Below are positions 6,966 to 34,828 of a stretch of 35,177 bases of DNA, piece by piece; the first letter of the stretch is position 1; every line of letters starts with the position of its first letter. Source of the DNA: Alteromonadaceae bacterium (GTDB lineage: Bacteria > Pseudomonadota > Gammaproteobacteria > Enterobacterales > Alteromonadaceae); NCBI GenBank assembly GCA_013216005.1, contig JABSOJ010000015.1:1-35177 (forward strand), given 5' to 3'. Made by a program: the position numbers and the translations under genes. The notes under the pieces were generated by a model. The model was not told the origin of the DNA, made no database searches, and worked only from the letters and a program-made list of their open reading frames with translations.

Positions 6966-8681
6966 GTGGCTGATACAACAAATTCAACAGGTATAGCTTT
7001 ATCAGATGGAAATGACCTAGTGGCAATGGATAACGATACTCTTTCAGAGCAAAAATCAGGCTTTGCAGCTGCGTTAGGCAATACGGATGTCTTACGTCAG
7101 TTGACACTGATTCTGGCACTGACGATATCTCTGGGAATTGCTGTATCTGTTATTATGTGGGCTAACCAAACTGAATATCGCGCTTTAGCTAAATTACCTA
7201 CGCAACAACTGATCAAAACCATGGATTTTCTTGATGTACAAAACGTTGATTTCAAGCAGGAAAACAATGTTATTTCAGTACCTATCGATGAATATCATCA
7301 CATTAAAATGTTACTGGCCCGCGAAGGTTTAACCGAAGAAGCTTCGGACGGCGAAAATATTTTAATGAAAGACATGGGGTTTGGTGTCAGCCAGCGTTTA
7401 GAAACAGAACGTTTAAAATATGGTAGAGAGCAACAGCTGGCCAGAACTATTGAACAATTACAATCAATCACTAAAGCCAATGTATTGCTTGCTATCCCTC
7501 GTGATAATGTTTTTGCAAGAAAAGCGAAAAACCCTTCGGCAACGGTTGTCTTAATTTTAAAACGTGGTCGGTTATTGTCTGAAGAAGAAGTTGATGCGGT
7601 AGTTGATATTATTGCCTCTGCGGTACAGGGTTTACAGCCAAACAGAGTTACAGTAACAGATCAAAATGGTCGGTTACTCAATTCAGGTTCACAAAGTTCT
7701 TTTTCTTCCCGTTCCCGTAAAGAGTTCGAAATTGAACAAAAACGTGAACAGGAATACATGGAAAAAATTGATTCAATTTTGATCCCTATCGTTGGTTTAG
7801 GGAATTACACCGCTCAGGCTGATGTTCTTATGGACTTCACTAATATTGAAGAAACATCACGGAAATATAATTCAGATCTGCCTGCTTTGCGCAGCGAAAT
7901 GAAAGTTGAAGATAACGTTATTGGTGGTGTACTGGGTGGTATTGCCGGTGCGTTAAGTAATCAGCCGCCCCTAGATGCAAATATTCCGGAAAATGCGGTA
8001 GCTACCAATCAAAATAGAACCTCGCCGGGTAGAAAGCATTCAGAATCAACAAAAAACTATGAATTAGATGAATCAATCAGTCATATTAAACAGCAAACTG
8101 GCGTGATCCGTAGAATTAGTGTTTCAGTAGCGTTAGATTACTTATCATCAACAAATGCAGATAGTGTTACTACACAAGTTCCTCGCTCGGTCACAGAAAT
8201 AGCTAATATTCGTCGTTTATTGCAAGGTACTATAGGCTTTGACATACAACGGGGTGATGTTTTAGAAGTGATCACCATTCCATTTTCACGCACCGTTCTT
8301 GATGTGGCAGAAGAATTACCTATTTATCAGCAGCCTTGGTTTTTGAAAATGTTTAAGTTGGCGATGGGCGCTTTAGTGATAATCGTGTTAATTACTTTTG
8401 TTATTCGTCCTATGTTGAAACGCTTAATTAACCCGGAACAGACACCAAGTGATTACGGTGAGAAGTCGCTTGATTCTCATATTGATTTAGGTGATGCAAC
8501 CATGGATATGTTAACATCAGACTTTGATGCTGGTGCGGTTGGTTTTGCTTCTGATGGTAGTTTACAGTTGCCTGATTTGCATCGGGACGAAGATATCCTT
8601 AAAGCGGTTCGTGCACTTGTTGCAAATGAGCCTGAATTGTCCTCACAAGTTGTGAAAAGTTGGTTGGTAGAAGATGAGTGA
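6966..8681 (+). CDS. fliF: MS-ring protein FliF
   Basis: FliF oligomerises in the inner membrane to form the MS ring, the platform for rod, C-ring and export gate. The 571-residue protein starts at GTG 6966 with GGAG eight bases upstream. It has a first membrane helix at about 44-66 (LTLILALTISLGIAVSVIMW), a periplasmic YscJ/FliF ring-building region (RBM domains, about 70-230), a long periplasmic FliF C region, a second membrane helix at about 458-480, and a C-terminal cytosolic tail (EDILKAVRALVANEPELSSQVVKSWL) that binds FliG. The 3' end overlaps fliG by eight bases, so the two are translationally coupled. Confidence 0.96.
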   Translation: MADTTNSTGIALSDGNDLVAMDNDTLSEQKSGFAAALGNTDVLRQLTLILALTISLGIAVSVIMWANQTEYRALAKLPTQQLIKTMDFLDVQNVDFKQENNVISVPIDEYHHIKMLLAREGLTEEASDGENILMKDMGFGVSQRLETERLKYGREQQLARTIEQLQSITKANVLLAIPRDNVFARKAKNPSATVVLILKRGRLLSEEEVDAVVDIIASAVQGLQPNRVTVTDQNGRLLNSGSQSSFSSRSRKEFEIEQKREQEYMEKIDSILIPIVGLGNYTAQADVLMDFTNIEETSRKYNSDLPALRSEMKVEDNVIGGVLGGIAGALSNQPPLDANIPENAVATNQNRTSPGRKHSESTKNYELDESISHIKQQTGVIRRISVSVALDYLSSTNADSVTTQVPRSVTEIANIRRLLQGTIGFDIQRGDVLEVITIPFSRTVLDVAEELPIYQQPWFLKMFKLAMGALVIIVLITFVIRPMLKRLINPEQTPSDYGEKSLDSHIDLGDATMDMLTSDFDAGAVGFASDGSLQLPDLHRDEDILKAVRALVANEPELSSQVVKSWLVEDE

Positions 8682-15588: not shown

Positions 15589-16656
15589 GTGAGTGATTTA
15601 TTATCGCAAGACGAAATTGACGCGTTATTACATGGTGTTGATGACGTTGAAGAAGAAGAAGCTGTTGAGAATGAGTCTTCTGAGGAAGGCATGCTGGATT
15701 ATGATTTCTCTTCACAAGATCGTATTGTTCGTGGTCGTATGCCGACCCTTGAAATGGTCAACGAGCGCTTTGCCCGTCATATGCGGATCAGTCTTTTTAA
15801 TATGATGAGACGGACTGCGGAAGTTTCTATTAATGGTATTCAAATGATCAAGTTTGGTGAGTACGTACATACCTTGTTTGTACCGACCAGCTTGAACATG
15901 GTTCGATTCAGACCTTTAAAAGGCACCGCTTTAATTACCATGGAAGCTAGGTTGGTTTTTATCCTGGTAGATAACTTTTTTGGTGGTGATGGACGTTATC
16001 ACGCAAAAATTGAAGGACGGGAATTTACCCCTACTGAACGTCGAATTGTTCAAATGTTGTTAAAAATAATATTTGAAGATTACAAAGAAGCCTGGTCTCC
16101 GGTGATGGATGTTTCGTTTGAATATCTTGATTCAGAAGTTAACCCTGCGATGGCAAATATCGTTAGTCCAACCGAAGTTGTCGTTATTAGTTCATTCCAT
16201 ATTGAGCTGGATGGTGGTGGTGGTGATTTTCATATCGCTTTACCCTATTCAATGTTAGAGCCTATTCGTGAGTTGCTTGACGCTGGTGTGCAAAGTGATA
16301 AAGAAGATACAGATATGCGGTGGTCTAAAGCATTACGTGACGAAATTATGGACGTACCTGTTGAGATCAGCACTAAATTTTTAGAATTAGATTTAACGCT
16401 ACAACAAATAATGGATATGGAAGTGGGAGATATTTTGCCGATAGAAATGCCTGAAACTATTACAGTGATGGTGGAAGACTTACCAACTTATCGGGCTAAA
16501 TTAGGCCGCAGCCGTGATAATATAGCAATACAAATTGAATCTAAAATAAAACGTCCGGAATCAGTTAAAAATGAACTGACCATTTTAACAAAAGGCGGGA
16601 AACGCTTAGACAGCGATGCCGAAATTCATTTGTTAGAAGAAGATTTTGATTATTAA
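15589..16656 (+). CDS. fliM: Motor switch protein FliM
   Basis: FliM forms the bulk of the C-ring and receives phosphorylated CheY to change rotation direction. The 355-residue protein starts at GTG 15589 (AAAAGAG upstream). Its N-terminus is the CheY-binding peptide LLSQDEIDALLHG (residues 4-16), joined by an acidic linker to the CheC-like middle domain (about 45-230), which contains the GGGG loop near FHIELDGGGGDFHI. A C-terminal SpoA domain (about 250-335) pairs with FliN. The CheY-binding peptide is echoed in CheZ and, unexpectedly, in CheA in this window. Confidence 0.96.
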   Translation: MSDLLSQDEIDALLHGVDDVEEEEAVENESSEEGMLDYDFSSQDRIVRGRMPTLEMVNERFARHMRISLFNMMRRTAEVSINGIQMIKFGEYVHTLFVPTSLNMVRFRPLKGTALITMEARLVFILVDNFFGGDGRYHAKIEGREFTPTERRIVQMLLKIIFEDYKEAWSPVMDVSFEYLDSEVNPAMANIVSPTEVVVISSFHIELDGGGGDFHIALPYSMLEPIRELLDAGVQSDKEDTDMRWSKALRDEIMDVPVEISTKFLELDLTLQQIMDMEVGDILPIEMPETITVMVEDLPTYRAKLGRSRDNIAIQIESKIKRPESVKNELTILTKGGKRLDSDAEIHLLEEDFDY

Positions 16657-26711: not shown

Positions 26712-26777
26712 ATAAAAAAATTAGTAAAATAGAAACATACAGTTAATTATTCACCATGAAACCTGTTGGAGGGTGCC

Positions 26778-27161
26778 TTGGATAAAAATATGAAAGTTCT
26801 TGTAGTTGATGATTTTTCAACCATGAGACGTATCGTGAAAAATTTGTTACGTGATTTAGGCTTCACCAATATATCAGAAGCGGATGATGGCAGTACTGCA
26901 TTGCCTATGCTGCAAGGTGGAGATTTCGATTTTGTCGTAACTGACTGGAATATGCCTGGCATGCAAGGGATAGATTTATTAAAAGCTATTCGAGCTGATG
27001 CTAATTTGGCTCATTTACCTGTTTTGTTGATAACGGCAGAAGCAAAGAAAGAGCAAATAATTATGGCAGCTCAAGCAGGAGTAAACGGTTATATTGTTAA
27101 ACCATTTACTGCTGCAACGTTGAAAACAAAGCTAGATAAAATTTTTGAGCGTTTAGGTTAA
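26778..27161 (+). CDS. cheY: Chemotaxis response regulator CheY
   Basis: Phosphorylated CheY binds FliM/FliN and changes motor direction. From TTG 26778 (GGAGG five bases upstream) the product is 127 residues, starting [12 protein letters not shown]. The ATG at 26790 is too far from the ribosome binding site. The receiver has acidic pocket residues Asp11-Asp12, phospho-acceptor Asp56 in VVTDWNMPG, the switch threonine region LLITAEA and the lysine of VKPF. It is a single-domain protein that heads the chemotaxis group. Confidence 0.95.
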
Positions 27162-27191: not shown

Positions 27192-27935
27192 ATGACTAAA
27201 TTTAACGGTGTCCATGTTACTTTGGAACAAGCAAAATTGTTGGTGGAGTATCTGGAATCTGATCAGCAAGATAAAGCCGATGAACTGGTTGCTGAAATAC
27301 AAAACCCGATCAATTCAAATTTATTTGAAGAAATTGGTAAGTTGACACGGCAGTTACATGATTCTTTGATGAATTTTCAGCTTGATTCAAGGTTAAATGA
27401 TTTGGCCAATGCAGAGATCCCTGATGCCAAAGAACGCTTGAATTATGTTATTAAACAAACTGAAAATGCAGCCAATAAAACCATGGATGCGGTCGAGGCA
27501 ATTTTTCCTGTTGTTGATAATATTCAACAACAGGTAAAAAATGTTGATCCGCTATGGGAAAAACTGATGAATAATCAGTTAGATCTGCCGGAATTTAAAA
27601 GTCTTTGTGTTGATATAGATAGTTTGTTAAAAACTACCAGTAAAGAGACCCAGATTATGCGAGTATTAATGACTGATGTTTTAATGGCGCAAGATTTCCA
27701 AGATTTAACCGGGCAAGTTATTCGTAAAGTTATTGAGCTAGTCCATGAAGTAGAAGAAAGTTTAATAAATATGCTGACCGTGTTTGGTATTTCAACGGCG
27801 GAAGCGAAAGGAGCTATTCTACCTAAAGTTGGTGATAATCTAGTGGAAGGGCCGGTAGTAAACAAAGAGACAAGAGATGATGTTGTTGTCGATCAGGACG
27901 ATGTTGATGATCTTTTGTCTAGTTTAGGATTTTAA
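27192..27935 (+). CDS. cheZ: CheY phosphatase CheZ
   Basis: CheZ dephosphorylates CheY-P and so ends the turning signal. The 247-residue protein is mostly a long four-helix hairpin. The catalytic region is visible as VLMAQDFQDLTGQVIRKVIEL, where the glutamine in the DFQDLTGQ stretch is the catalytic residue by family. The C-terminal CheY-tethering peptide QDDVDDLLSSLGF (235-247) matches E. coli CheZ. It is followed by cheA after 13 bases. Confidence 0.95.
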   Translation: MTKFNGVHVTLEQAKLLVEYLESDQQDKADELVAEIQNPINSNLFEEIGKLTRQLHDSLMNFQLDSRLNDLANAEIPDAKERLNYVIKQTENAANKTMDAVEAIFPVVDNIQQQVKNVDPLWEKLMNNQLDLPEFKSLCVDIDSLLKTTSKETQIMRVLMTDVLMAQDFQDLTGQVIRKVIELVHEVEESLINMLTVFGISTAEAKGAILPKVGDNLVEGPVVNKETRDDVVVDQDDVDDLLSSLGF

Positions 27936-27948
27936 CGGGAGTTGCTGC

Positions 27949-30219
27949 ATGTCATTTGAGGCAGATGAAGAAATTCTTCAGGACTTTTTAATTGAAGCGG
28001 GTGAAATACTGGAATCGCTTTCTGAACAGTTGATAGAACTGGAAAATGATCCGGGAAACGCTGAGTTATTGAATTCAATCTTTAGAGGTTTTCATACAGT
28101 AAAAGGTGGTGCAGGATTTCTTTCTTTAAACCATCTGGTTGATGTTTGCCATGGTGCGGAAAATATTTTTGATTTATTACGTACCGGACAACGTACAGTA
28201 AATTCTTCATTAATGGATGTTATTTTGCAATCGCTTGATAGCGTTAATGAAATGTTTGTTTTAGTGCAAAATGGTGAAGTACTTGAAGCTGCAGATTCTG
28301 CATTATTAGCTGAATTACATCGTTTAAGTACTCCTGAGGGAGAAGAGGCTGAAGTTGAACAAGTTGTTGTTTCGACGTCAAGGTCTGTTGATAGTGATGA
28401 AGAAATCACAGATGACGAATTTGAAGCGTTGCTTGATGAATTGCATGGTGGTGGTAGCCCTTCAGCTGCATCTTCGCCTGTAGCAACTTCGGTAAATTTA
28501 TCTACTGATAGTGATGAAATAACCGATGATGAATTTGAAGCATTACTTGATGAATTACACGGTAGCGGTGGTCCCTCTGCTGTAGGTTCTACAAAAAATT
28601 CACAGGCAACCAATACAACAAAAACAACGAAAACAACAAAATCAACCACGAATAGTGGTGAAATAACTGACGACGAGTTTGAATCATTACTTGATGAATT
28701 ACACGGTCAAGGTTCTTTTTTATCAGAGGCTAAAGCTCCAGCAACTTTGAGCGTTGCCAGTGACAGTGATGAAATAAACGAGCAGGAATTTGAAGCACTT
28801 CTTGATCAACTTCATGGTAAGGGTCAGGCACCTAAAACTCAGCCCGTTGTCACTACCCCAGCATTATCAACAAGTTCTCAACCAAAAGCTTCTAAGCCAA
28901 AAGCATCTTCAAATGCTGGTGCTGCAAAATCAACGGTTAAAAAACCAGTTGGAAAAATAGCGCCAAAACCAGTTGCGGGGAAAGCTAAGGCAAAAGATAA
29001 AAAAACGGCAGTAATTCCTCAAGGTGAAACTACCGTTCGTGTTGATACCAAACGACTTGATCAGATCATGAATATGGTTGGTGAGTTGGTATTAGTTCGT
29101 AACCGTTTGTCTAGCTTAGGCATGGCAAAAGAAGATGAAGAGCTTACTAAAGCCATTTCAAATTTGGATGCGGTGACTACTGATTTGCAGGGTGCGGTTA
29201 TGAAAACCCGCATGCAGCCAATCAAAAAAGTTTTTGGCCGTTTCCCGCGGGTTGTTCGAGATCTTGCCCGTAGCCTGAATAAAGAAATTAAATTGATACT
29301 GGAAGGTGAGGAGACCGATTTAGATAAAAATCTGGTTGAAGCCCTTGCTGATCCATTAGTGCATTTAGTTAGAAACTCAGTTGACCACGGTATTGAAGAG
29401 CCGGCCGTTCGTGAAGCTAATGGTAAACCCAGAGAAGGTACTGTTGTTTTATCTGCGTCCCAGGAAGGGGATCATATTCTATTAACCATTCGTGATGATG
29501 GTGCAGGTATGAATGCAAATAAATTAAAACAGATAGCGATAGAAAGAGGGGTTTTAGATACTGAAGCAGCTGCTCGTATGTCTGACTCTGAAGCTTTTAA
29601 TTTGATTTTTGCTCCTGGGTTTTCAACTAAAACTGAAATTTCTGAAGTATCTGGCCGTGGTGTCGGTATGGATGTGGTGAAAACAAAAATTACCCAGCTC
29701 AATGGTACAGTGGCTATTGATTCACAATTGGGCATTGGTACAGTACTGGAAATTAAAGTACCACTTACTTTAGCAATTCTACCTACTTTAATGGTAGTCG
29801 TAGGCAAACAGACATTTGCATTGCCGCTTGCCGGAGTGAATGAAATATTCCATTTAGATTTAACTAAAACCAATGTTGTTGATGGGCAATTAACCACAAT
29901 TGTCCGTGAAAAAGCTATTCCGTTATTTTATTTGGATCAATGGTTAGTGAGAGACTATGTTGAACAAACACGTGAAAAAGGTCATGTGGTTATTGTTCAG
30001 TTGGGCAAACAACAAATTGGTTTTGTGGTTGATAGCCTGATTGGTCAAGAAGAAGTAGTTATAAAACCTCTTGATAGATTATTGCATGGTACCCCAGGCA
30101 TGGCAGGAGCAACAATAACCAGTGATGGTGGCATTGCTTTGATTATTGATGTACCTAGCATGTTGAAATTCTATGCTAAGAAATCACCTGTTAACAAAAG
30201 ATTACGTACGCACAATTAA
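27949..30219 (+). CDS. cheA: Chemotaxis histidine kinase CheA with four tandem CheY-binding-like peptides
   Basis: CheA autophosphorylates when receptors are active and passes phosphate to CheY and CheB. The 756-residue protein has P1 with His49 in FRGFHTVKGGAGF. A long low-complexity region (about 135-360) replaces a recognisable P2. P3 dimerisation follows (TKRLDQIMNMVGELVLVRNRLS), then P4 kinase (N-box LVRNSVDHGIE, DDGAGM, GFSTKTEISEVSGRGVGMDVVK) and the CheW-like P5. In the linker four copies of an EITDDEFEALLDELHG-type unit begin at residues 152, 190, 238 and 275. They resemble the CheY-binding ends of FliM and CheZ. In vibrios the CheA segment bound by ParP (LID) lies in this general region, so ParP docking is an alternative role. 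Confidence 0.95.
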   Translation: MSFEADEEILQDFLIEAGEILESLSEQLIELENDPGNAELLNSIFRGFHTVKGGAGFLSLNHLVDVCHGAENIFDLLRTGQRTVNSSLMDVILQSLDSVNEMFVLVQNGEVLEAADSALLAELHRLSTPEGEEAEVEQVVVSTSRSVDSDEEITDDEFEALLDELHGGGSPSAASSPVATSVNLSTDSDEITDDEFEALLDELHGSGGPSAVGSTKNSQATNTTKTTKTTKSTTNSGEITDDEFESLLDELHGQGSFLSEAKAPATLSVASDSDEINEQEFEALLDQLHGKGQAPKTQPVVTTPALSTSSQPKASKPKASSNAGAAKSTVKKPVGKIAPKPVAGKAKAKDKKTAVIPQGETTVRVDTKRLDQIMNMVGELVLVRNRLSSLGMAKEDEELTKAISNLDAVTTDLQGAVMKTRMQPIKKVFGRFPRVVRDLARSLNKEIKLILEGEETDLDKNLVEALADPLVHLVRNSVDHGIEEPAVREANGKPREGTVVLSASQEGDHILLTIRDDGAGMNANKLKQIAIERGVLDTEAAARMSDSEAFNLIFAPGFSTKTEISEVSGRGVGMDVVKTKITQLNGTVAIDSQLGIGTVLEIKVPLTLAILPTLMVVVGKQTFALPLAGVNEIFHLDLTKTNVVDGQLTTIVREKAIPLFYLDQWLVRDYVEQTREKGHVVIVQLGKQQIGFVVDSLIGQEEVVIKPLDRLLHGTPGMAGATITSDGGIALIIDVPSMLKFYAKKSPVNKRLRTHN
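28402..28818 (+). repeat. Four 16-residue peptide repeats in the CheA linker
   Basis: Copies lie at 28402-28449, 28516-28563, 28660-28707 and 28771-28818. Copies 1 and 2 are identical at protein level (EITDDEFEALLDELHG), copy 3 has one change (A to S), and copy 4 is more diverged (EINEQEFEALLDQLHG). DNA identity is lower than protein identity, with many synonymous differences, which implies selection on the peptide rather than recent duplication. Linkers of 21-32 residues between copies are Ser/Thr/Ala/Lys-rich and unrelated to each other. Confidence 0.9.
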
Positions 30220-33241: not shown

Positions 33242-34018
33242 TTGGTAGTTTGGACCGTAGCAAATCAAAAAGGTGGTGTGGGTAAAACAACCACTACAAT
33301 TGCATTGGGTGGCTTGTTGGCTGAACAAGGTTACCGAGTATTATTGGTTGATACTGATCCTCATGCATCATTGAGCTATTATTTTGGAATTGAATCTGAA
33401 GATTTGGACCTGAGTGTTTATAACTTATTTACCCGGGTGTCTAAAAAGGAAGAAATATTACAGAGTTTGTGTCCTACGCAATATGCAAACATTGATATTT
33501 TGCCGGCAACAATGGGATTAGCGACGCTTGATCGATCATTAGGGGCCAAAGGAGGCATGGGTTTAGTACTTAAAAAAGCGATGCAAAAAATCACTGATGA
33601 ATATGATTATGTTTTGATGGATTGTCCTCCAGTGTTGGGCGTATTAATGGTGAATGCATTAGCGGCATCGGACAGAATTATTGTGCCGGTACAAACGGAG
33701 TATCTTGCACTTAAAGGTTTAGATAGAATGATGAAAACGATGGATATTATGCAAGTGGAGCAAGATAAACCCTTTAATTACACTATAGTGCCAACCATGT
33801 TTGATAAAAGAACGAAGGCTTCGATATTAGCTTATAGAAGTTTACAGGAACAATATCCTGAAAGTTTATGGCTAGGAGTTGTGCCGGTAGATACAAATTT
33901 TAGAAATGCCAGTACCTGCAGACAAGTGCCATCGGATCACGCTGCATCTTCTCGTGGTGTTTTCGCTTATAGGAATTTATTAACGCATTTATTAGAATTA
34001 CAAACGGTGGCTAAATAA
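33242..34018 (+). CDS. parC: ParC, ParA-like ATPase for polar chemotaxis arrays
   Basis: In vibrios ParC localises chemotaxis arrays to the pole with ParP. The 258-residue protein has the ParA deviant Walker A KGGVGKTTTT (about 10-19), the switch motif LLVDTDPHASLS and LMDCPPVLGVLMVNAL. The start is TTG 33242 with AGGAA upstream, and the MVVWTVANQKGG start matches the family. No partner ParB or parS is visible, so plasmid/chromosome partition is unlikely. It abuts parP with no spacer. Confidence 0.9.
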   Translation: MVVWTVANQKGGVGKTTTTIALGGLLAEQGYRVLLVDTDPHASLSYYFGIESEDLDLSVYNLFTRVSKKEEILQSLCPTQYANIDILPATMGLATLDRSLGAKGGMGLVLKKAMQKITDEYDYVLMDCPPVLGVLMVNALAASDRIIVPVQTEYLALKGLDRMMKTMDIMQVEQDKPFNYTIVPTMFDKRTKASILAYRSLQEQYPESLWLGVVPVDTNFRNASTCRQVPSDHAASSRGVFAYRNLLTHLLELQTVAK

Positions 34019-34828
34019 ATGAGTAAGTCATTACCTGCCAGTAAAAAATTAATGCAAACCTACTTGTCTGAGCTGCTTACAGAAGAAGTGACTGAGGAAG
34101 AAAATCTGCCGGTTGCAAAAAGTGTTGTGGACATTGAAAAAGCTAAGCGTTTAGAAAAGCTATTGCAAAAAGTCAGTGTAACTCAGCAAGGATCAGAAAG
34201 TGAAAAACCTTCGATAACTTCGTATAAGTCAGAGCGGTCCAAAGTAGAAAGAAAAGTAGAAAGTAAAGTTGTTGATAAAGCGGTTGAAGTTAAAGCAACC
34301 CCAGTTAAGAAAAAAGTAACAGAGCAAGATTTAGTTACCCGTAAAAGTCAGGCGAACGAATTTTCTAAAGTTAAGAAAAATTATCGGTTAGGTAGTTTTC
34401 AAGCAATGTTTTTCGATGTGGCAGGTTTAACTCTTGCGGTGCCCTTAATAGAATTAGGTGGTATTTATAATGTCGGTAAAACCAATAGTATTATGGGGAA
34501 ACCCGATTGGTTTAAAGGCGTTATGTTACACAGAGACGAAAAAATTAATGTGGTAGATACTGCTTTATGGGTTATGCCGGAAAAATGTGATGAGAAATTA
34601 AAAAATTCACTAAACTATAAATATATTATAATGTTAAGTAATAGCTTGTGGGGATTGTCGGCAGAAAATCTGATTGATACCATTACACTAGAGCAAGATG
34701 AAGTAAAGTGGCTTGATAATTCGAACAAACGACCATGGTTAGCAGGTCTGGTAAAAGATAGAATGTGTGCATTATTAGACGTTGAATCACTAATCCAGCT
34801 ACTGAATGATGGTTTAGGAATTCAATAA
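34019..34828 (+). CDS. parP: ParP, CheW-domain chemotaxis array localisation protein
   Basis: ParP links ParC to the chemotaxis array through CheA and receptors and stops array loss from the pole. The 269-residue protein has a charged low-complexity N-terminal half (Lys/Glu/Val-rich, about 1-120) and a C-terminal CheW-like domain (about 128-265: FQAMFFDVAGLTLAVPLIEL through NLIDTITL and LAGLVKDRMCALLDVESLIQLL). Its ATG follows the parC stop immediately. The context (parC before, cheW after) is the same as in vibrios and Pseudomonas. Confidence 0.88.
   Translation: MSKSLPASKKLMQTYLSELLTEEVTEEENLPVAKSVVDIEKAKRLEKLLQKVSVTQQGSESEKPSITSYKSERSKVERKVESKVVDKAVEVKATPVKKKVTEQDLVTRKSQANEFSKVKKNYRLGSFQAMFFDVAGLTLAVPLIELGGIYNVGKTNSIMGKPDWFKGVMLHRDEKINVVDTALWVMPEKCDEKLKNSLNYKYIIMLSNSLWGLSAENLIDTITLEQDEVKWLDNSNKRPWLAGLVKDRMCALLDVESLIQLLNDGLGIQ

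Follow-up and report, generated by a model that had tools for sequence, protein, structure and literature searches.

In the CheA kinases of E. coli and T. maritima, the segment between P1 and P3 holds P2, a single folded domain. The surface of CheY that binds CheA reportedly overlaps the one to which FliM and CheZ bind, and P2 is the part of CheA concerned in this overlap. FliM-like peptides prefer phosphorylated CheY, and P2 prefers unphosphorylated CheY. CheZ and FliM are described as sharing the alpha4-beta5-alpha5 face of CheY (PMC3774744). More than half of all CheAs are reported to be without P2 and to have an extended unstructured region there instead (Berry et al. 2023, PMC10782961); the main text of that survey contains no word beginning with motif, linear or disordered.

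Another element is placed in the same part of the kinase in Vibrio. The LID of CheA binds the AIF domain of ParP (W305 in V. cholerae). In the parts of PMC7534058 and PMC5706961 that were available, the LID is located between P2 and P3 and is described as exclusive to species with ParC and ParP.

The stretch of DNA analyzed here, called the window, comprises 35,177 nucleotides from an Alteromonadaceae bacterium (contig JABSOJ010000015.1). Its CheA consists of P1, about 250 residues and then P3-P4-P5, and within the 250 residues there are four 16-residue copies of one peptide, two of them identical (Table 1). The shared motif, [DE][DE]EF[ED]xLLDxLHG, spans about 11 residues and has the character of an acidic amphipathic helix. 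An earlier note on this DNA had described four tandem peptides in the stretch from P1 to P3, and both coordinates and translation agree with it. The Pfam matches of this CheA are Hpt, H-kinase_dim, HATPase_c, CheW and, on the repeat, a weak one to SHOCT. A SHOCT identity for the repeat was rejected: the 30.1 bits (against a 27-bit cut-off) were read as a sum of partial matches, and single stretches all fall below the cut-off; the same match appears in 16 of 30 chosen class-wide CheAs.

With fliM further upstream, the window continues through cheY, cheZ, cheA, cheB, motA/motB-type genes, a parC-type gene and parP, matching the order fliM ... cheY cheZ cheA cheB ... parC parP that we take to be a mark of F6-class chemotaxis systems. 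Among 133 class-wide loci, many of them cut by contig ends, cheY is found near cheA in 118, cheZ in 116, parC in 101 and parP in 72. The cheY open reading frame opens with TTG at 26766, but the start that relatives share (MKVLVVDD) corresponds to the ATG at 26790.

Table 1. Features of the window that bear on the CheA repeat array.
Feature	Position	Strand	Basis
fliM	15589..16656	+	Pfam PF02154, translation
FliM N-terminal QDEIDALL, known CheY-binding type	15607-15630		
cheY, proposed partner	26790..27161	+	Pfam PF00072, translation
cheZ	27192..27935	+	Pfam PF04344, translation
CheZ C-terminal QDDVDDLLSSLGF, known CheY-binding type	27894-27932		
cheA, 756 aa	27949..30219	+	ORF, Pfam; P2 domain not found
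CheA P1 (Hpt domain, residues 8-99)	27970..28245	+	Pfam PF01627, E 1.8e-16
Motif copy 1, EITDDEFEALLDELHG	28402..28449	+	Translation, DNA repeat family D1
Motif copy 2, EITDDEFEALLDELHG (identical to copy 1)	28516..28563	+	Translation, DNA repeat family D1
Motif copy 3, EITDDEFESLLDELHG	28660..28707	+	Translation, DNA repeat family D1
Motif copy 4, EINEQEFEALLDQLHG	28771..28818	+	Translation, DNA repeat family D1
CheA P3 (H-kinase_dim, residues 361-420)	29029..29208	+	Pfam PF02895
parC-type ParA ATPase gene	33242..34018	+	Pfam AAA_31; orthologues downstream of cheA
parP-type gene, CheW-like C-terminal domain, RPWLAG	34019..34828	+	Pfam CheW; W240 invariant in alignment A5

The earlier note saw no recognizable P2, and none was found in the window CheA by the Pfam P2 and CheY-binding models, nor by AlphaFold2 in a relative. 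The Pfam P2 models also matched none of 30 chosen class-wide CheAs. This test is of limited sensitivity, because the same models matched none of 20 paralogous CheAs, despite a fold-like conserved stretch at that place in their consensus. The AlphaFold2 construct joined CheY through a spacer to the CheA of the relative L087, which stood in for the window's own CheA. The L087 linker was predicted mostly below pLDDT 50 and formed no compact fold, and short predicted helices at construct residues 549-559, 584-594 and 620-631 coincide with the three motifs. The array resembles P2 in its position between P1 and P3 and in the task proposed for it, keeping CheY near P1. It differs in form: P2 is one folded domain, whereas the array would be one to seven short helices on disordered linkers.

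The array is widespread. A CheA of the window type (E of 2.5e-188 or better) is present in 47 of 59 relatives' genomes, a set that includes the window's own genome. Of these 47, 45 contain a DNA pattern for DEFExLLD; across all 59 the pattern has 103 matches, 102 of them inside CheA. A class-wide comparison of CheA linkers drew evenly on 369 genomes, of which 136 yielded a CheA (E<=1e-140), and 133 loci were examined. The motif is present in all 120 CheAs whose P1-to-P3 linker is intact, in one copy (8 CheAs), two (43), three (55), four (13) or seven (1). The earlier note had treated the array as a feature of this CheA in particular; it is instead class-wide, and its retention in every intact linker rules out chance repeats. 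Outside the 120 stand three loci with no P3 anchor (L215, L234 and L243), six loci with the anchor in which P1 is not intact and copies are still present, and four whose linkers are cut or masked and show no copies (L167, L195, L197 and L217). The motif pattern was widened once, when L185 had given no match, so as to accept Val in place of the first Leu.

Copy number varies around three. In 80 named loci, a set whose search used the motif itself as part of its seed, there are two copies in 17, three in 53, four in 9 and five in 1. Three copies are found in 27 of the 30 loci L001-L030, the window being one of the 30; compared with their close relatives, the window and its congener each carry an extra copy. 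Copies are separated by a median of 42 residues (range 24-111, 205 spacings). Two Halopseudomonas loci (L100 and L103) also carry the motif. A class-wide pattern search matched at least 98 of the 369 genomes, with matches outside CheA as well; among 11 chosen matches, three are CheA or pieces of CheA (L244, L245 and L252), and the other eight are single hits in other open reading frames. Paralogous CheAs of other types are nearly free of the motif: 18 of 20 chosen from related genomes have no pattern match anywhere, one (L276) has a single degenerate linker match, ADFESIL, and one (L292) has a single match in the P5 region.

Several individual loci deserve mention. The CheA of L174 (5355-8573, minus strand) has a 576-residue linker with seven copies, the largest array seen. 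In L185, Val replaces the first Leu of the motifs (EFEKVLD, EFENVLD), and the CheZ end of the same locus, QDEIDDILSDLGFD, has Ile at the matching place, a parallel change in a single case. The CheA of L234 (genome G229) is apparently split across two reading frames by a frameshift or an assembly error, and its upstream piece holds the motif copy DEFEALLDALHAS (full form EEFEALLDALHAS).

The motif copies keep their sequence as the linkers around them drift. Between copies 1 and 2, 7 of 14 codons differ, every difference being synonymous, and copies 1 and 3 differ over the same length by seven synonymous changes and one non-synonymous change. Between the window and the near relative L031, the 56 motif codons contain 2 non-synonymous and 16 synonymous differences, while the 175 codons of the linkers between motifs contain 68 and 26; P1 (115 codons) contains 6 and 22. 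The earlier note had read synonymous divergence with a conserved protein sequence as a sign of selection, and the codon counts, both copy against copy and against L031, show this pattern. Across 61 CheA N-termini, the mean top-residue frequency is 0.85-0.91 in the three shared copies and 0.41 at other linker positions; for the counterpart of the window's first copy, which is occupied in 28%, it is 0.63.

What the conserved peptide resembles is found at the ends of two other proteins of the pathway. The earlier note had aligned its core with QDEIDALL of FliM (residues 7-14) and QDDVDDLL of CheZ (residues 235-242), and the translations agree. Like the FliM N-terminal peptide, the CheA motif gathers an acidic or Gln residue, an acidic residue, a hydrophobic residue, a further acidic residue and A-L-L in one short stretch; like the CheZ C-terminal peptide, it reads acidic-x-hydrophobic-acidic-x-L-L-x-x-L. 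Against these ends, Phe and acidic residues in CheA replace Ile/Val and Q/D. Unlike the FliM peptide, with Ile where CheA has Phe, the CheA motif also has an added D-x-L-H-G tail, is repeated and is internal to a kinase, while the CheZ peptide is single and terminal.

The resemblance was quantified with a matrix built from 87 FliM N-termini and 117 CheZ C-termini, with CheA left out of the training. It was run on 8,300 non-training open reading frames of at least 90 residues (134 of them CheA) from the class-wide loci and the window. CheA accounts for 14 of the top 20 scorers, 39 of the top 50 and 63 of the top 100 (AUC 0.98), and the best stretch of CheA lies within the motif in 116 of 134. 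A FliM-only matrix performs equally (AUC 0.98), its top 200 containing 111 CheZ and 75 CheA. The CheZ-only matrix scores CheA more weakly (AUC 0.93, with 24 CheA in the top 200 and 42 in the top 300). The window's CheA ranks 2 of 51 with FliM and CheZ combined, 3 of 52 with FliM alone and 10 of 52 with CheZ alone. In the reverse direction the signal is weaker, as 1.2% and 2.4% of unlabelled open reading frames reach the median FliM and CheZ scores, respectively, with a CheA matrix. With a matrix of the three commonest FliM peptides (64 of 87), 93 of 120 class-wide linkers exceed shuffles of their own composition at p<=0.01 and 108 at p<=0.05 (100 shuffles per linker), leaving 27 that miss p<=0.01; for the window, 33 of 5000 shuffles reach the FliM score of the linker. 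It also counts against the resemblance that acidic amphipathic helices in general score somewhat and that a single CheA has several copies. Judged by sequence, the motif matches the FliM/CheZ-type consensus by more than chance, with a likeness that is moderate rather than exact.

Other proteins also scored. An open reading frame of the window at 6966-8681, perhaps a flagellar basal-body gene judging by its position, contains RLLSEEEVDAVVDIIA and stands above CheA in the combined and FliM-only scans. The best scorers other than CheA are three FliN-labelled open reading frames (L111-L243) with a QDDIDALL- or QDDVDSLM-type stretch; these FliM-like stretches are possible additional CheY-binding sites in the switch.

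Taken as a whole, the array is probably, if by no wide measure of confidence, a multivalent linear-motif replacement for P2 that docks CheY. Each copy, as an acidic amphipathic helix on a disordered linker, would bind CheY on its alpha4-beta5-alpha5 face, where FliM and CheZ bind and, in E. coli, P2 as well. Since each CheA has several copies, each dimer two CheAs and each array many dimers, CheY would be held beside P1, and this would speed phosphotransfer. We infer the binding, the face used and the kinetic effect. A point against this reading is that FliM-like peptides favor the phosphorylated form, so that a motif of this type might slow CheY release.

The earlier note had likewise proposed that the array captures CheY, and this idea stands in part: no P2 was seen, the peptide is conserved on drifting linkers, and its likeness to FliM and CheZ exceeds chance. 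Its suggested check by predicting the complex of CheA peptide and CheY gave a less clear return. In the tethered L087 construct the three motif helices had similar, intermediate confidence (blocks of 79, 73 and 74). CheY was poorly folded with the 16-row alignment A3 and better folded with the 61-row alignment A6, where again no copy was singled out. Docking was thus not reproduced by the model, because no copy had distinctly higher confidence. This result would sit well with helices that tune the kinase, CheY being uninvolved, by binding within CheA itself or to receptors, CheW or CheB, and CheA is of course always present. We nonetheless consider such a role quite unlikely, given that a matrix made from CheY-binding peptides picks out these very stretches.

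Independent hints of CheY docking come from other work. The CheYs of F6 systems are reported to depart, at positions that face P2, from those F6-like CheYs that serve F7 CheA (Ortega 2020, PMC7184735). In P. aeruginosa, which has an F6 pathway, CheY-EYFP overlaps CheA-CFP at the receptor cluster, and the available part of the same source describes this species as without ParC/ParP-related genes (PMC12410967). By numbering against E. coli CheY, the window's CheY presumably has Q94, V103 and K117.

The ParP-binding LID offers a different reading of the same residues. The array probably lies in the same stretch of CheA as the Vibrio LID, and the window contains a parP-type gene, with RPWLAG present in its product. 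The copies might then be LID and nothing else, docking the CheW-like AIF domain of ParP near the conserved RPWLAG tryptophan and tethering arrays to polar ParC, with the resemblance to FliM and CheZ arising by convergence of acidic helices. Consistent with such a role, 75 of 80 named loci have a ParP-like gene within reach on the downstream side. In addition, the motifs and their immediate flanks (Gly or Pro beside them) are nearly the sole conserved part of the P1-P3 linker, so the LID probably overlaps at least one copy.

Genomes without ParC and ParP bear directly on this reading. In 18 class-wide loci with at least 5 kb downstream, parC and parP are absent near cheA, and all 18 genomes were searched for both, using the window protein or a 38-row profile for ParP. 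Ten have both genes elsewhere (ParC at 198-282 bits together with a ParP match, broken in G376). In these ten (G161, G162, G174, G214, G261, G277, G324, G362, G363 and G376), parC sits on a different contig from the cheA cluster or at a long distance from it, and in most of them parP is next to parC. Genome searches detected neither ParC nor ParP in G059, G068, G080, G211, G227, G229, G249 and G353, which are 91-100% complete and belong to six families. These eight yielded only ParA paralogues at 118-137 bits, the level of second hits in ParC-bearing genomes, and, with the ParP profile, only CheW-length matches at 18-32 bits, with none in G353. For comparison, the profile gave 252 and 267 bits in two genomes contained in it and, outside it, 228 bits in G174 and 56-72 bits in G324, G344 and G376 (the latter two with broken frames). 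A very divergent ParP could escape the profile, because the weakest true matches reach only 56-72 bits, and the absence of ParC supports reading ParP as absent from the eight. G326 and G216 were not counted, since their ParP matches are only at CheW level but ParC is present (213 and 238 bits) and a divergent ParP is possible.

The array is kept in all eight. Their loci have four copies (L188), three (L241), two (L185, L138 and L238) or one (L232 and L237), with at least one copy in G229, in the upstream piece of its two-frame CheA. In five of the eight, at least one copy has a tail of the form L-(H/Y)-G or M/I-H-G. In L238 and L241, whose genomes are among those in which ParP and ParC were not found, the linkers contain longer repeated units (LPEGVDPDGEITDDEFEALLNQRD and similar) that keep the EF-acidic-LL core and have lost the D-x-L-H-G tail. 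CheZ was not found in the genomes G080, G227 and G159, and their CheAs have one, one and four copies. Where ParC and ParP, or CheZ, were not found, cheY adjoins cheA in every locus but L138, in which the contig breaks off near the beginning of cheZ, and fliM is present in each of these loci whose stretch extends to it. The array is therefore kept without ParP, ParC or CheZ and with cheY adjacent, which indicates that it follows CheY rather than ParP or CheZ.

ParP docking thus cannot be the array's only role, and the idea that it is, which the earlier note had named as its alternative, is weakened to the point of being unlikely. Unlike the LID as described in the available parts of PMC7534058 and PMC5706961, the array occurs without ParC and ParP; if the LID does consist of motif copies, its stated exclusivity misfits the eight genomes.

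One or more copies may still double as a ParP-binding LID where ParP exists. A division of labor, with some copies holding CheY and at least one holding ParP in species that have it, is a tentative possibility. The copies do differ by position: in alignment A2 the penultimate copy is followed by QGAF and the last by KGxAPK, and in 72 loci with ParP nearby an LHG-type tail is found in 58 of 69 last copies and 61 of 67 penultimate copies but in 17 of 46 third-from-last copies. These signatures are not universal, however, as a Phe follows soon after the tail in only 10 of 69 last copies and 12 of 67 penultimate ones.

CheY docking by the array, the reading preferred here, speaks to a gap in the field. 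How P2-less CheAs find CheY is left open in the parts of the 2023 survey that were available (PMC10782961), and the array gives one large CheA group a concrete candidate answer in the form of a conserved peptide of known type. No description of such an array was found in the parts covered of the literature on linear-motif CheY docks in CheA; the 2014 LID paper and a 2018 review, which fall outside that scope, may contain one. As a still speculative extension, the P2-less CheAs of the class may dock CheY through an array that imitates the peptides of motor and phosphatase, with the array acting as a polar buffer of CheY, possibly CheY-P, and the LID recruited from one of its copies. If this is true, kinase, motor and phosphatase would compete directly for one face of CheY.
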